A DNA stretch of 64,000 bases from NCBI GenBank assembly GCA_958295975.1, contig OY282446.1:783289-847288 (forward strand), written 5' to 3'. This document shows positions 2,575 to 50,494 of this stretch, piece by piece (position 1 is the stretch's first letter; each line of letters starts with the position of its first letter). The translations under genes were made by a program, and so were the position numbers. Source of the stretch: Tepidiformaceae bacterium (lineage in GTDB: Bacteria; Chloroflexota; Dehalococcoidia; Tepidiformales; Tepidiformaceae). Under the pieces are notes generated by a model. The model did not search any database. It was not told where the DNA came from and saw nothing but the letters and a program-made list of their open reading frames with translations.

Positions 2575-3480
2575 TCACGCGCGGACGGCGACGAGCGCGC
2601 CGCCCCGCTCGCGGCCCCGCAGCCAGGCGCGCAGGCGGCGCGGCGGCGCCAGCAGGGCGGCGGAATCGCGGCGCGTGGCGTTCGCCTCCACCAGCCGCCC
2701 CACCCCGCGGTAGCCGAGGCGGCGGTAGGCGGCGACGGCGGGGGCGTTGGCCGGATCGACGGTCAGGACGACGGTCCCGCAGCGCTCCAGCAACGCCCCC
2801 GTGACGGCGCTGGCGGCGGCGGTGGCGTAGCCCTGCCCGCGAAAGCGGGGGTGCGTGAAGACGTTGCCCACGACGGCCAGCCCCTCCGCCGGGGAGACGG
2901 CGTGCGTGCCCGCGATGGCCACCAGCCGCCCGCCCACGACCACGCCGCGGTAGACGCCGCCGTCGATGTGGGCGGGCTCGTAGGAGGCGGGCGGGCCCTC
3001 GGCCCCGTAGAGCGCATTGACGCGGCGGATGTCGATGCCGAGCAGGCGCGTGGTGGGCACGGACTCGCGCGGCCGGAAGCCATCCGCGCGCACGCTCATG
3101 CGCAGCATCGGCTGCGCGTTGGCGAGGCGGTAGACGCCGCGCATGGCGTCGAGGTGGCCGACGGCGCAGGTGAGGAAGCCGTGCGCGGGCCCCGGCGCGA
3201 TGGAGAGGATGGCGGCCACCGCGCGCGCGTCGCCGGTCGCGTAGGTGGCGTCGCCCAGACCGCCGCGGCTGTGCGTCACGAGCGCCTCGCCATCCGGCCC
3301 CCCGGCGGCGTACCAGCGCGTGCGCTCGAAGAGGCCGGGCTCCAGCTGGGCGAGGGCGTAGGCGGCGAGGTCCCGTTCGGAGCGCAGGCGGGCGCGGATG
3401 TCGTCGCGCTCGCGCAGGGGCCGCACGAGGTACTCGCGCCGTTCCCGCGCCGCCGTCCAGGGCAGCGCGCGCCCCGCCAT
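2575..3480 (-). CDS. GNAT family N-acetyltransferase
   Basis: A 301-residue protein whose C-terminal half is a GNAT fold of the FR47-like type. It contains VVGNVFTHPRFRGQGYATAAA, the acetyl-CoA pyrophosphate loop with its RxxGxA/G signature, followed by NAPAVAAYRRLGY, the usual last helix and strand. The N-terminal 110 residues are less conserved and may set acceptor specificity. The acceptor cannot be told from sequence. Its ATG shares one base with the pfkB-like stop (TGATG), and its stop overlaps the start of the glycosyltransferase, so it is probably translated as part of the salvage operon. Confidence 0.85.
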   Translation of the reverse strand: MAGRALPWTAARERREYLVRPLRERDDIRARLRSERDLAAYALAQLEPGLFERTRWYAAGGPDGEALVTHSRGGLGDATYATGDARAVAAILSIAPGPAHGFLTCAVGHLDAMRGVYRLANAQPMLRMSVRADGFRPRESVPTTRLLGIDIRRVNALYGAEGPPASYEPAHIDGGVYRGVVVGGRLVAIAGTHAVSPAEGLAVVGNVFTHPRFRGQGYATAAASAVTGALLERCGTVVLTVDPANAPAVAAYRRLGYRGVGRLVEANATRRDSAALLAPPRRLRAWLRGRERGGALVAVRA

Positions 3481-4397
3481 CAGTCCTCCTCCGGGATGCG
3501 GGCGATGTCGCGGAAGCGGCGGCAGCGCTCCTCGATCTCGCCGCGCTCCAGCGTCAGCAGGCGCGAGGGGCCGAAGCCCTCGACGGCGAAGGAGGCCGTC
3601 ACCGAGCCGTGCACGACGGCGCGGCGCACGGCGGCGGCGGAGAGGTCGGGGGCGCGGTCGAGGGAGCCGAGGAAGCCGCCCGCGAAGGCGTCGCCCGCGC
3701 CGGTGGGGTCCACCACCTCGGCCAGCGGCCAGGCGGGCACGGCGAAGTAGTCCCCGCCGTGGAGGCAGACGGCGCCGTATTCGCCGAGCTTGACGATGGC
3801 CGCGCGCGCGCCCTTCGCCAACAGGGCGCGGCCCGCGCGGGCGACGCCGTGTTCGCCCGTCAGCTGGCGCGCCTCCGCGTCGTTCACGGAGACGAAGGCG
3901 GCTTCGGCCATCGTTTCCAGCACGGCCTCGCGCGCCCTGTGCACGTAGCCCTCGATGGTATCGACCATGGTCGCGCGCGGGGCCGTGAGGGAGCGCAGCA
4001 GGGCGCGCTGCGCGGCGGGGTCGGCGGCGGCGGCGAAGACCGTCTCCGAGGCTTCCCAGCCCGCGGGCAGGGGCGGACGCGGCCCGGCGTTGACGCCCAC
4101 TTCGGTGTAGAGCGTGTCGCGCGCGTTCATGCCGTCGCGGTAGCGCGCGCCCCAGCGGCTCGTGCGTCCGCCGGGGACGGTCGTGAGCCCGGCCAGGTCG
4201 ATGCCCGGCTGGGCCTCCAGTCTGGCGCGTTCGCGGCGGGGGAAGTCGTCGCCCACGACGGCGAAGAGGCGCACGTCGGTGAAGCGCGCGGCGGCGAGGG
4301 CGGCGCAGGTGGCGGAGCCGCCCAGCGATTCCGCCGCGCGCCCGGCGGGCGTCTCGATCTCGTCCAGCGCGACCCAGCCCGCCACCAGCACCGTCAT
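3480..4397 (-). CDS. PfkB family carbohydrate/nucleoside kinase
   Basis: A 305-residue ribokinase-superfamily protein. The C-terminal signature DPTGAGDAFAGGF at about residues 230-242 holds the anion hole and catalytic Asp. The N-terminus has the first strand with the early GGSATCAAL substrate-binding glycines. I chose the ATG at 4397 because it overlaps the mtnP stop as ATGA; the frame is open further upstream only as a shadow of mtnP. Lying between mtnP and a GNAT gene, it may phosphorylate a sugar or nucleoside released during methylthioadenosine or 5'-deoxyadenosine salvage. The substrate is an inference. Confidence 0.85.
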   Translation of the reverse strand: MTVLVAGWVALDEIETPAGRAAESLGGSATCAALAAARFTDVRLFAVVGDDFPRRERARLEAQPGIDLAGLTTVPGGRTSRWGARYRDGMNARDTLYTEVGVNAGPRPPLPAGWEASETVFAAAADPAAQRALLRSLTAPRATMVDTIEGYVHRAREAVLETMAEAAFVSVNDAEARQLTGEHGVARAGRALLAKGARAAIVKLGEYGAVCLHGGDYFAVPAWPLAEVVDPTGAGDAFAGGFLGSLDRAPDLSAAAVRRAVVHGSVTASFAVEGFGPSRLLTLERGEIEERCRRFRDIARIPEED

Positions 4398-5275
4398 GCC
4401 CCCGCTCCCAGCCGCCGTCGCAGCAGCGGGGCCAGCCGTTCGCGGGCCTCGGGGGGGATGGCCGCGGGCGGGGTCACGAGGGCGGCGTCGAGCGCGCGCC
4501 CGCAGGCGCAGGGGGGCTCGTCGCGGTCGAGCGAGGCGGCCAGCAGGCGCACGGCATGGCGGCAGCGCTCGACGTTCTCGCGCAGCGTGTCGAAGACGGC
4601 GGCGGCGTCCACGGCCTCCTCGCCGGGGCGCCAGGCGTCGTAGTCGGTGACGGCGGCGAGCATGGCGTAGCAGAGCTCGGCCTCGCGCGCCAGCTTCGCC
4701 TCGGGCAGGGCGGTCATGCCCACGAGGCTGGTGCCCCAGGAGCGGTGCAGCTCGCTTTCGGCGCGCGTGCCGAAGGCGGGGCCCTCGACGACGACGTAGG
4801 CGCCGCCGTCGTGCGCGGTCGCGCCCGCCGCGCGCGCCGCCGCCAGCGCGCCCCCCCGCAGCCGCGCGCAGAAGGGCTCGGCGAAGGCGACGTGCGCGAC
4901 CACGCCATCCCCGAAGAAGGTGGCCGGGCGGCCCCCGCGGGTGCGGTCGATGAGCTGGTCGGGGGCGGCCAGGTCGCGCGGGCGGTAGTCCTCGCGCAGG
5001 GAGCCGACGGCGGAGACGGCGAGCACGCGCCGCGCGCCCAGCGCCTTGAGCGCCCAGAGGTTGGCGCGCTGGGGCAGCTCCGACGGCAGCAGGCGGTGGC
5101 CGGGGCCGTGGCGCGCGAGGAAGGCCACGCGGCGGCCCTCCAGTTCGCCCGCGCGGATGACGTCGCTGGGCGCGCCCCAGGGCGTGTCCACGGTCAGCTC
5201 CTCGACGCCGCGCAGGCCGGGCATCTCGTAGAAGCCGCTGCCGCCGAGGACGGCCAGGTCGATCGGTTCCGTCAC
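4394..5275 (-). CDS. mtnP: S-methyl-5'-thioadenosine phosphorylase
   Basis: A 293-residue member of the PNP/MTAP phosphorylase family. It has GGSGFYEMPGL at the N-terminus, FLARHGPGHRLLPSELP (phosphate and purine loop), RVLAVSAVGSLREDYRP, and VVVEGPAFGTRAES followed by GMTALPEAKLAREAELCYA, all diagnostic of MTAP. It cleaves methylthioadenosine with phosphate to adenine and 5-methylthioribose-1-phosphate. The product of each half goes to a neighbour: mtnA downstream of apt takes the sugar and apt takes adenine. The last 40 residues, CGRALDAALVTPP onward, include a CxC pair. The gene starts 24 bases after mtnA ends. Confidence 0.93.
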   Translation of the reverse strand: MTEPIDLAVLGGSGFYEMPGLRGVEELTVDTPWGAPSDVIRAGELEGRRVAFLARHGPGHRLLPSELPQRANLWALKALGARRVLAVSAVGSLREDYRPRDLAAPDQLIDRTRGGRPATFFGDGVVAHVAFAEPFCARLRGGALAAARAAGATAHDGGAYVVVEGPAFGTRAESELHRSWGTSLVGMTALPEAKLAREAELCYAMLAAVTDYDAWRPGEEAVDAAAVFDTLRENVERCRHAVRLLAASLDRDEPPCACGRALDAALVTPPAAIPPEARERLAPLLRRRLGAGA

Positions 5276-47808: not shown

Positions 47809-48210
47809 GTGCCCGGCCGCGGCCGCTCCACTTCGACGGGGAACCAGTTTCGCGAACAGGTCGCGGAACTCGCGGAAGCGCTTGACCTCACGGTTGATCG
47901 CGAGGTCGAGGTTGGACGAAGGCTGTGGGGATCGAAGCGCAGGATCGACCTGATTCTCACCGCGCCGGAGAGTGGTCAGCGCCTCGGCATCGAGTGCAAG
48001 TTCCAGCGGACGCCGGGGACGGCGCAGGAGAAGATTCCCGCTGTCATTGAGGACATCGGCAGCTGGCCCATCGACGGGATCGTCGTCTACGACGGGCCCG
48101 GCTTCTCCGCGAACATGCGCGCGTACCTGGACTCGACGGGCAAGGCGATCGCCCTCGCCGACCTGGACGTCTGGCTCCGGCTCTACTTCGGGCTGGAACT
48201 GGGCGGCTAA
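47809..48210 (+). CDS. PD-(D/E)XK nuclease superfamily protein
   Basis: 133 residues from a GTG. RRIDLILTAPESG carries the Asp and LGIECKFQ the E-x-K of the PD-(D/E)XK core, so a catalytic nuclease is likely. The C-terminal half (IEDIGSWPIDGIVVYDGPGF) continues the fold. It is followed 33 bases later by a Dam methylase gene, an arrangement typical of a small restriction-modification module. The recognition sequence is unknown. Confidence 0.78.
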   Translation: MPGRGRSTSTGNQFREQVAELAEALDLTVDREVEVGRRLWGSKRRIDLILTAPESGQRLGIECKFQRTPGTAQEKIPAVIEDIGSWPIDGIVVYDGPGFSANMRAYLDSTGKAIALADLDVWLRLYFGLELGG

Positions 48211-48231
48211 CACGCCCGCCAGCGCGGCGCG

Positions 48232-48237
48232 TAGAAT
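48232..48237 (+). promoter_or_regulatory. -10 box of the dam-like gene
   Basis: TAGAAT ends six bases before the GTG at 48244. The gap to the preceding stop is 33 bases, so the methylase has its own promoter and a probable leaderless start, allowing expression separate from the nuclease. Confidence 0.5.
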
Positions 48238-48243
48238 GCGGGC

Positions 48244-49233
48244 GTGGCTAGGCCGTTCCTGAAGTGGGCCGGCGGCAAGGCGAAACTCGCCCCGCTCGTC
48301 GCCGAACGCGCCCCCGAACGCATCGGGCGCTACCACGAACCGTTCCTCGGCGGGGGCGCCGTTTTCTTCGCCCTGCGCGAAGCCGGACGCATCGCCGACG
48401 CCGCGCTCGCCGACGGCAACGCGGACCTGATCGGAACCTGGCGGGCGGTGCGGGACGACGTGGAGGGCGTGATCGCCGCGCTCGAACCGCTGGCCGCGCG
48501 CTACCTGAACACGGAGCAACTGCAGCAGGCGTTCGCCTACTACAAGGTCCGCGACGACCTGCGCCCGCGCCTGCCCGTCGCGTGGGCCGCGCGCCTGCTC
48601 TTCCTCAACAAGACCTGCTTCAACGGCCTCTACCGCGTGAACCGCAGGGGGCGCTTCAACGTGCCCCACGGACGCTACGAGCAGCCCGCCATCCTCGACG
48701 CCGAACGGCTGCGCGACGCCTCGCGCGCGCTCGCGGGGGTCGAACTGTGCGCGGAGGATTTTGAAAGGGCGTGCGCGCGCGCGGAACCGGGCGATTTCGT
48801 CTACCTCGACCCGCCCTACCAGCCGCTGAGCGCCACCTCGGCCTTCACGCAGTACACGGGCGCGGACTTCGGATTCGCGGACCAGCAGCGCCTGCGCGAC
48901 GCCTTCGACGCCCTCACGGAGCGGGGCGTGCCCGCGCTCCTCTCCAACTCCGCCCACCCCGACATCGAGAACCTGTACCGCGGCTACGCCATCGAGCGCG
49001 TGCCCATGGGGCGCTCCATCAACTCCAACGGCGCGGGCCGCAAGCCCATCGACGAGCTGCTGGTGAGCAACATCGAGCGCGTCGCGGGCGCATCCGGCGC
49101 TCAGTCGAGCCGCTGCATCCCGGAGATGAACAGCCGCTCGCCGAACGCGTCGAGGATGGCGTCGCCGAGCGCGTCCGCGTCGTCCAGCCCCGCGCACCGG
49201 TCGGGGCGCATGGGCACGATGGCGCCGCCGTAG
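48244..49233 (+). CDS. dam: DNA adenine methylase (D12 class, Dam-like)
   Basis: 329 residues from a GTG. FLKWAGGKAKL, EPFLGGGAVFFAL (SAM binding) and DPPY at 189-192 define the D12 alpha class that methylates adenine N6. LLFLNKTCFNGLYRVNRRGRFNVPHGRY is the D12 target-recognition neighbourhood. The last 50 residues run Ser/Pro-rich over the opposite-strand gene at 49101-49379, a 133-base overlap. The real stop may have been lost, or the tail is genuine. Its partner is probably the PD-(D/E)XK gene. Confidence 0.88.
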   Translation: MARPFLKWAGGKAKLAPLVAERAPERIGRYHEPFLGGGAVFFALREAGRIADAALADGNADLIGTWRAVRDDVEGVIAALEPLAARYLNTEQLQQAFAYYKVRDDLRPRLPVAWAARLLFLNKTCFNGLYRVNRRGRFNVPHGRYEQPAILDAERLRDASRALAGVELCAEDFERACARAEPGDFVYLDPPYQPLSATSAFTQYTGADFGFADQQRLRDAFDALTERGVPALLSNSAHPDIENLYRGYAIERVPMGRSINSNGAGRKPIDELLVSNIERVAGASGAQSSRCIPEMNSRSPNASRMASPSASASSSPAHRSGRMGTMAPP

Positions 49234-49379
49234 GACGCTTCGATGGCGAAGGCGATGACCGGCTCGCCGCCGTCGTGGCCCGTCTCCACGCTCACGAGCA
49301 TCCAGTCCGTGGGCTGCGCCTCATAGGTCAGCGTCTGCCCGGCGAAGCGGCCCAGCCGCTCGACGACATCCTGTTCCAT
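49101..49379 (-). CDS. Unknown 92-aa protein next to the pentamer array
   Basis: MEQDVVERLGRFAGQTL, a beta-rich middle (DWMLVSVETGHDGGEPVIAFAIEAS) and an acidic end. No family is recognised. It lies just beyond the repeat array on the same strand as the 199-aa gene, so one transcript could hold both with the array between. It overlaps the dam tail on the other strand. Confidence 0.55.
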   Translation of the reverse strand: MEQDVVERLGRFAGQTLTYEAQPTDWMLVSVETGHDGGEPVIAFAIEASYGGAIVPMRPDRCAGLDDADALGDAILDAFGERLFISGMQRLD

Positions 49380-49435
49380 AGAGCGCATTCTACTGCCGTG
49401 TGGTTTGGGGCGCGGACGCTCACCGCTCACGATGG

Positions 49436-49610
49436 ACGCCCACGCCCGCCTTGCCGTGCCACACCGAACCAAGCCACGCCGAGCTATGCCGGGCCATGCC
49501 ACACAGTGCCACGCCTAGCCGCGCCTCGAAGTTCCTCGCCGTGCCTCGCCTCGCCTAGCCATACCGGGCCAAACCGTGCCACACCGGGCCCCGCCATGCC
49601 TCGCCACGCG
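49436..49610 (-). repeat. Phased 5-base repeat array, about 35 units
   Basis: From 49446 to 49610 the sequence is 33 consecutive pentamers with no slip in register. On the minus strand each is GGYNN, mostly GGCNN: three fixed bases, then two variable ones. 28 of the 33 units have GGC or GGT in front; the others are TTC, TGT, AGC, GGA and CGC. One more unit in register starts at 49436. The variable pairs use 11 of the 16 possible dinucleotides. The array begins 4 bases after the TAG of the 199-aa gene. It is not a CRISPR: the repeats are too short and there are no spacers. It is not protein-coding in any clear frame. Confidence 0.93.
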
Positions 49611-49613
49611 ATC

Positions 49614-50213
49614 CTACTCCGGGGCGGCCTCGATGGTCACGGTCTCGAAGCGCCCGTAGTCGCCGGACTTCTCCGGACGCCAGTCGCCGAGGCCGATGCG
49701 GCGTCCGGCGATGTCGAGCCACGTTTCCAGCTGCGTGCGGTCCACCAGCTCGTCGTCGCAGTCGAGCGTGAATTCGCACGACCAGGGCAGGTCGAACATG
49801 GCGCGCGTCCGCAACACGCGGTTGCGCTGGACGACCACGCCGGTCGTGAACTGCGCCTTCTGCCCCAGCTCCTCGATCGTTGTGCCGTAGCGCTCGGTGT
49901 CGTAGACGAACTTCGACTTCGTGACGATGAGGCCCTCGCGCACCTGCGGCCCCTGCTTCAGCTTGCGGGCGGCGGTTTCGATGCAGGCGCGGAGCGCCGG
50001 CGTCGGGATCGCGGGAGTTTCGTCCCCGTCGAGCCAGAGGGCGGTGAGGCAGTCGAGTTCGCGGAGGCGGGCCTCGTCGGATTCGGTGCGGTTGCTTCCG
50101 CGCTTGCGGGTGATTTCCGCCTTTTCGAGGTTGGCAGGGGTTCGGGGGTCGAGCCCGGCCCCGGAGTGGTGGATGATCGGACGGATTCCGCGGATTTCGC
50201 ACTCGTAAAGCAT
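49614..50213 (-). CDS. Unknown 199-aa protein upstream of the pentamer array
   Basis: It begins MLYECEIRGIRPIIHHSGAG and continues with LTALWLDGDETPAIPTPALRACIETAARK, VREGLIVTKSKFVYD and RNRVLRTRAMFDLPW. It ends with DIAGRRIGLGDWRPEKSGDYGRFE. The beta-rich build and the late Gly-rich IGLGDWRP...GRF motif recall RAMP-type (Cas7-like) RNA-binding folds, but that is a guess. GAGGA stands just before the ATG. The frame is open further up to 50408 only as a shadow of the HNH gene. Being placed right before the repeat array suggests that the two work together. Confidence 0.75.
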   Translation of the reverse strand: MLYECEIRGIRPIIHHSGAGLDPRTPANLEKAEITRKRGSNRTESDEARLRELDCLTALWLDGDETPAIPTPALRACIETAARKLKQGPQVREGLIVTKSKFVYDTERYGTTIEELGQKAQFTTGVVVQRNRVLRTRAMFDLPWSCEFTLDCDDELVDRTQLETWLDIAGRRIGLGDWRPEKSGDYGRFETVTIEAAPE

Positions 50214-50494
50214 TCCTCGATCGCCTTTCCGAAGGTGGCCTTGAAAGCCCAGATGTCGCCCTCGTACCGTCTCAGCGCCGTGGCCATCTCGTGGCAGATG
50301 ACGCACAGGGCGGTCAGATCGTCCGCCGTCGTCTCCGCTTCGTCCGGGTAGTTCGGCCAGGCCCAGTGGTGGGCCTCGACCGCATCGCGCTTGCCGCAGA
50401 ACTGGCACTTCCCGTCCGAACGGGCGAAAGCCTGCGCGCGGGCGGCGCGATAGACCGGATGGTCGTAGTCGAAGCGGCTGTGGTGCTTGGGCAC
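49958..50494 (-). CDS. HNH-family zinc protein, with apparent stop loss
   Basis: The first 95 residues are the real domain: CQFCGKRDAVEAHHWAWPNYP has the first CxxC and the HH of the active site, and LTALCVICHEMAT the second CxxC and a His. The domain ends at the ATG of the 199-aa gene (50213). The frame then reads on for 83 residues of Ser/Pro-rich sequence over that gene. Other genes here overlap by ATGA; in this place the sequence is ATGC, so a TGA stop may have mutated. The real product is probably the first 95 residues plus a junk tail, or a -1 frameshift fuses it to the 199-aa protein. Confidence 0.75.
   Translation of the reverse strand: MPKHHSRFDYDHPVYRAARAQAFARSDGKCQFCGKRDAVEAHHWAWPNYPDEAETTADDLTALCVICHEMATALRRYEGDIWAFKATFGKAIEECFTSAKSAESVRSSTTPGPGSTPEPLPTSKRRKSPASAEATAPNPTRPASANSTASPPSGSTGTKLPRSRRRRSAPASKPPPAS

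Follow-up and report, generated by a model that had tools for sequence, protein, structure and literature searches.

Viral Interference Programmable Repeat (VIPR) systems, which are RNA-guided and CRISPR-like, were described in a 2026 preprint, from the SUSP1 phage and from a Pseudomonas fulva prophage (PMC13142463). In these systems a RAMP protein, Vipr, assembles on guide RNAs in which GGY and NN alternate over 9-16 units, and double-stranded DNA (dsDNA) is read with one base skipped per unit; for VIPR types III-V, enzymes of the nuclease or helicase kind are predicted as well (PMC13142463). Here we analyse a window of 64,000 nucleotides from Tepidiformaceae bacterium (Chloroflexota; contig OY282446.1, positions 783,289 to 847,288), in which a preliminary description had pointed to a phased run of GGYNN units behind a gene for a 199-aa protein and had known of no named element of this type. 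As of 2026 the latter statement no longer holds, the element being VIPR (PMC13142463). Judged from its sequence, the locus is very probably a chromosomal VIPR defence locus. VIPR itself was already known; the locus is a new member, with a decoded target for one of its two guides.

The Vipr protein and the GGYNN array

The array lies 8 nt downstream of vipr (49614..50213, minus strand; phrog_4652), whose 199-aa product matches the SUSP1 Vipr protein (PDB 36pp) with E-values of 1.7e-21 for a profile and 2.2e-15 for the single sequence, and is 28% identical to the SUSP1 phage protein. Its AlphaFold2 model (pLDDT 90) resembles Cas7-type RAMPs: Foldseek returned 44 hits at E <= 0.001, every one of them a chain from a type III (Csm) or type VII CRISPR effector complex. 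The glycine-rich C-terminal motif GDWRP...GRF, invariant in the family, is common to the window and SUSP1 proteins, and the window gene is full length and keeps the family's invariant residues. PADLOC gave no Cas match for Vipr. A Pfam match to PNP_UDP_1 (E 2.5e-4) was set aside, as it falls below the family cut-off and is contradicted by both the fold and the PDB match.

A scan of the minus strand for 5-nt units finds, between 49605 and 49446, GGC or GGT at the start of 28 out of 33 units of a single register, and the NN pairs use 11 of the 16 possible values; our recount reproduces both figures of the preliminary description. The runner-up 33-unit stretch on either strand has GGY in 9/33 units. 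GC-rich as it is, the window holds no other run of this kind, which speaks against the concern that such runs are strewn at random. The identity of the array with itself is 0.48 at lag 5, 0.62 at lag 10 and 0.54 at lag 15, and 0.21-0.29 at the remaining lags.

What had been taken for one run of 33 units reads instead as two guides, of 14 and 16 units, with a separator between them and a hairpin after the second, because separators of this kind part the modules of related loci. Guide 1 (49536..49605, minus strand) has GGY in 14/14 units, with the pairs GA AT GG CC GT AC TT CC AT TA GA GA AC GA. Guide 2 (49446..49525, minus strand) has GGY in 14 of its 16 units, with the pairs GC TA GT AC GT AT CC AT TC GT TT TC GT AC AA GG. 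The trailing units GCGTG and GGCGT belong to the hairpin, which leaves 49605-49536 and 49525-49446 as the arrays themselves. All exceptions to GGY had been described as substitutions that keep the register. This stands for TGTGT and AGCTC, apparently true substitutions within guide 2, and not for GGAAC and TTCGA, which together form the 10-nt separator GGAACTTCGA (49526..49535, minus strand).

This anatomy is best seen in the relatives, 29 loci whose Vipr is 56-70% identical to the window protein; L-numbers below label VIPR-bearing loci or contigs or, for L054, L096 and L116, phage Peptidase_S78 sequences. Their records name Dehalococcoidia, SAR202, Caldilineaceae, Boseongicola, Silicimonas, other Alphaproteobacteria, Acidimicrobiia, Binatia and Vicinamibacterales. 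Where the 3' flank of a relative can be read, vipr is almost always followed immediately by GGYNN modules, which upholds the linkage to the 199-aa family. We counted 53 modules including the window's two, with a median of 13 units and with AA or AG as the commonest end; guide 2 ends in AA followed by GG. Four modules in L008 are parted by the 9-nt GGACTTCGA/T, out of register, and GGACTTCAA sits between the GGYNN runs of L011. The window separator is an L008-type separator with one extra base, the register being kept by chance.

The hairpin (49408..49447, minus strand; a 12-bp outer stem and an inner stem, -33.3 kcal/mol, z -1.9) is a candidate tail of the guide RNA (vrRNA) or a terminator. 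It follows guide 2, guide 1 being followed by the separator only, and in the relatives a hairpin often trails the module at the same position with a differing sequence. No Rfam RNA or hammerhead matched in 49-51 kb at E <= 1. Downstream of the array lies a 94-aa open reading frame (ORF; 49101-49385, minus strand) with no Pfam match.

Could the array be a functionless period-5 tandem repeat, or a binding array that acts at the DNA level? A period of 5 is indeed not codon-driven. However, GGY is preserved next to pairs that are hypervariable, the modules are linked to the Vipr family over several phyla, and a conserved protein motif emerges when guide 1 is decoded. The asymmetry of GGY and NN, together with the linkage to Vipr, rules out a simple tandem repeat, and we give the wider proposal almost no credence.

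Guide 1 and a phage prohead protease

When guide 1 is read under the 1-nt-skip rule with third codon bases left free, it decodes to [DE][IM]GPVT[FL]P[IM]Y[DE][DE]T[DE], which is close to the Peptidase_S78 prohead-protease motif [DE]IGPVTFPAYxxT[DE]. Of six IMG/VR contigs that contain its 8-unit core (units 3-10), only L054 has the match within a long ORF with the skips on wobble bases; this ORF encodes a phage prohead protease whose motif reads KEFGPVTFPIYDSAT. In each of 14 further relatives of the L054 protease with the same motif, the guide scored above all 100 shuffled guides, and skips of 0 and 2 stayed at background. An exact scan of IMG/VR with units 1-8 returned 30 contigs, and in 21 of these the match falls on [DE]IGPVTFPAY, or on a motif close to it, with the skips at wobble positions; Peptidase_S78 was found in 10/10 contigs tested of the guide 1 set (E 2e-26 to 3e-51). 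Units outside the search pattern also agree: over 17 distinct contexts, TA is present in 17/17 and AC in 14/17 (P ~0.0005 against random unit draws). The best matches reach 12/13 units (L116) and 12/14 units (L096).

Guide 1 would therefore recognise the Peptidase_S78 prohead protease gene of HK97-type phages at a near-invariant protein motif, the match being close and the target motif identified. Because the guide decodes to a motif of a capsid-maturation protease of phages, anti-phage defence is the most likely function of the locus.

Longer patterns were less productive. Exact 10-unit guide patterns had no match in IMG/VR; with up to three mismatches, neither guide matched in 25 VIPR-bearing and 393 same-class genomes, or found a target in its own 2.4-Mb genome. 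The patterns of these genome scans were probably too long, because they extend close to the 3' units, the part of the guide that fails to match the target in L017, L027 and L029. Guide 2, in antisense reading, gives P[FL]VT[DE][NK]T[DE][IM]G[IM]TVTYA; its 8-unit patterns produced no convincing target in IMG/VR, and over the phage loci it scored at background level.

The skip rule and cis matches in related loci

The skip rule finds support within this clade because guides also match genes of their own loci under a 1-nt skip. In comparisons of guides with their own loci, five matches exceeded z > 4 with a skip of 1, one with a skip of 0 and none with a skip of 2. The guide at L029:2836-2877 agrees in 21/22 bases across the start codon of the adjacent Porin_4 gene. 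A guide of L006 (L006:2209-2300; L006:2505) matches another adjacent Porin_4 gene, and also the L029 porin; two more L006 guides match the same L006 gene more weakly. Both porin cases come from metagenome-assembled genomes, of Silicimonas (L029) and Boseongicola (L006). In two Acidimicrobiia loci, 7 (L017:6300-6341, minus strand) and 6 (L027:6250-6291, minus strand) contiguous guide units match exactly; in L017, the one of the two in which the gene was read, the matched region is just upstream of the start codon of a neighbouring sulfatase. The L008 guide (L008:5072) resembles a phage tail-tube gene of its own locus. The skipped base is the wobble base in the porin and tail-tube cases, and local z scores against shuffled guides are 6.5-9.5 for the L029 and L006 porins and the L017/L027 sulfatase 5' region. 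These partial matches may mean that guides target homologues of the neighbouring genes, or that some VIPRs regulate their neighbours.

By extension, the window guides might repress a chromosomal gene of the host rather than fight phages, a proposal for which these skip-1 cis matches are the argument. At the window locus itself, though, no skip-1 cis match was found nearby, neither guide has a target in its own genome within three mismatches, and the decoded guide 1 points to a structural gene of phages, so that we hold this to be very improbable here and retain anti-phage defence.

Two observations on guides elsewhere in the family deserve mention. The Caldilineaceae VIPRs L016, L018, L021, L022, L023, L028 and L030 have a largely conserved common guide, TT AT GG AG .. 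TC TT GT AA AT, which suggests a conserved target. In the viral contig L031 an unbroken in-register tract of 111 GGYNN units spans 4314-4868, and in another, L032, about 18 short guides, mostly ended by GGCAG, span 3243-4394; these tracts are possibly the overlapping arrays mentioned in the preprint (PMC13142463). A second phrog_4652 (Vipr-like) gene lies near the locus in L008 (6730-7464).

An HNH-type accessory gene

Upstream of vipr, a candidate vap gene (49958..50494, minus strand) encodes a small HNH-type protein with the pattern CxxC...HHW...DDLTALCxxCH. It matches the HNH endonuclease family phrog_119 (E 4e-6) and Pfam HNH (E 0.0028); in PADLOC it gave only a weak Csf1 match (E 0.003). 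The frame overlaps the start of vipr by ~256 nt, and the same arrangement is present in 19/28 relatives examined. The +1 frame of vipr has a median open length of 253 nt, where synonymous recoding would predict 80 (P ~0.005), so the overlap may be real. With an HNH-like ORF of predicted DNA-related function adjoining vipr, the locus probably belongs among VIPR types III-V.

Origin of the locus

Vipr was absent from 59 related genomes, eight of them of the same genus, and when 49.09-50.55 kb was compared by BLAST with seven sister species nothing aligned. The flanking genes, for a D12 adenine methyltransferase, a PD-(D/E)XK nuclease and an alpha/beta hydrolase, are mostly conserved in these species, most of which carry the nuclease gene in inverted orientation between the other two. 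The most economical interpretation is a gain of the VIPR locus next to the methyltransferase-nuclease pair, within a segment that would include the 94-aa ORF. In the window, the nuclease and methyltransferase genes (47809-49104) are rearranged relative to the sister species at the VIPR insertion point.

Is the locus still working? It could be the decayed, non-working remnant of a lost mobile element, as might be argued from the lack of phage structural genes noted beside it, the loss of GGY from two units of guide 2 (TGTGT, AGCTC) and the failure to find a perfect target. Yet vipr is full length with its invariant residues, the HNH frame is open, and guide 1 has an intact register of GGY and a coherent decoded target. 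We regard decay as unlikely and take this chromosomal VIPR, with its HNH-type accessory gene, to be probably active.

Several points nonetheless weigh against this interpretation. No target of guide 2 was found in the bacterium's own genome, the 25 VIPR-bearing genomes, the 393 genomes of the class or IMG/VR. The IMG/VR scans with guide 1 did not give a perfect target, 12/13 units being the best. Unit 9 is AT in guide 1 and GC (Ala) in the phages; L054 does have AT, with differences at other units. Some look-elsewhere effect remains, since the S78 motif was spotted after the collection had been scanned, although the unsearched units agree. The HNH-type ORF scores under the Pfam cut-off and has D where the middle residue should be N. 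Finally, the relatives are mostly metagenome-assembled.

Mechanism and comparison with known systems

RNA production, the skip rule and repression are known from other VIPRs (PMC13142463); for the window locus, we infer RNA production, cutting and a function in the host. We propose that a single minus-strand unit would give the HNH-type accessory protein, Vipr and two tandem vrRNAs. Vipr subunits would line the RNA, each gripping one GGY and presenting two free bases, and the NN pairs would read dsDNA as NNxNNx..., the skipped base falling on the codon wobble position. Bound at the phage prohead protease gene, the guide 1 complex would prevent transcription, and the HNH protein may act by cutting. 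The preliminary description had envisaged short anchors with a two-base payload, as an RNA with regularly spaced GG or as sites for a protein polymer; these ideas are borne out in part, in that they fit the published VIPR mechanism (PMC13142463).

With this work VIPR is also known from chromosomal loci that carry an HNH accessory gene, in Chloroflexota, Alphaproteobacteria, Acidimicrobiia and Binatia as recorded, and sequence evidence by itself lends support to the noncontiguous code in an additional clade. It also points to a guide whose target is a protein motif conserved in the product of a phage morphogenesis gene. With the skip on the wobble position, synonymous change would not matter, and many different phages could be recognised by a single guide. 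Two testable ideas follow. One is that skipping the wobble base confers broad-spectrum immunity; the other is that VIPR has been co-opted for the regulation of host genes, for instance those of porins, which frequently serve as phage receptors. That guides can be directed at protein motifs instead of DNA sequences and, with the matches to neighbouring porins, that receptor down-regulation forms a second mode of defence is a proposal to which we give an even chance.

How does the locus compare with other RNA-guided systems? In CreTA/scaRNA, CRISPR effectors regulate neighbouring genes through a partial match; the cis matches to adjacent porins in L006 and L029 resemble this, and no such match is seen at the window locus. 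With the Cas7 filaments of class 1 CRISPR (Csm3, type VII Cas7) the locus shares the RAMP fold and a periodic interruption of the guide-target duplex (with the CRISPR period as given in PMC13142463). It differs in its 5-nt rather than 6-nt period and its noncontiguous guide. Instead of the CRISPR array and cas operon of class 1, the unit consists of HNH, one RAMP and a GGYNN array, and no CRISPR repeats or spacers lie beside it in the stretch read.

The likeness to the VIPRs of SUSP1 and P. fulva is far more extensive: a homologous Vipr RAMP, GGY/NN tracts of ~9-16 units (here 14 and 16), a structured 3' tail, an accessory gene by vipr, and phage targets read by a 1-nt-skip code at the codon wobble, as in the match of guide 1 to Peptidase_S78 genes. 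Compared with the SUSP1 system, the window locus is chromosomal, has an upstream HNH-type gene in place of vap1, and carries two guides parted by a 10-nt element with a single hairpin; its guide 1, moreover, appears to be aimed at a protein motif conserved over many phages.
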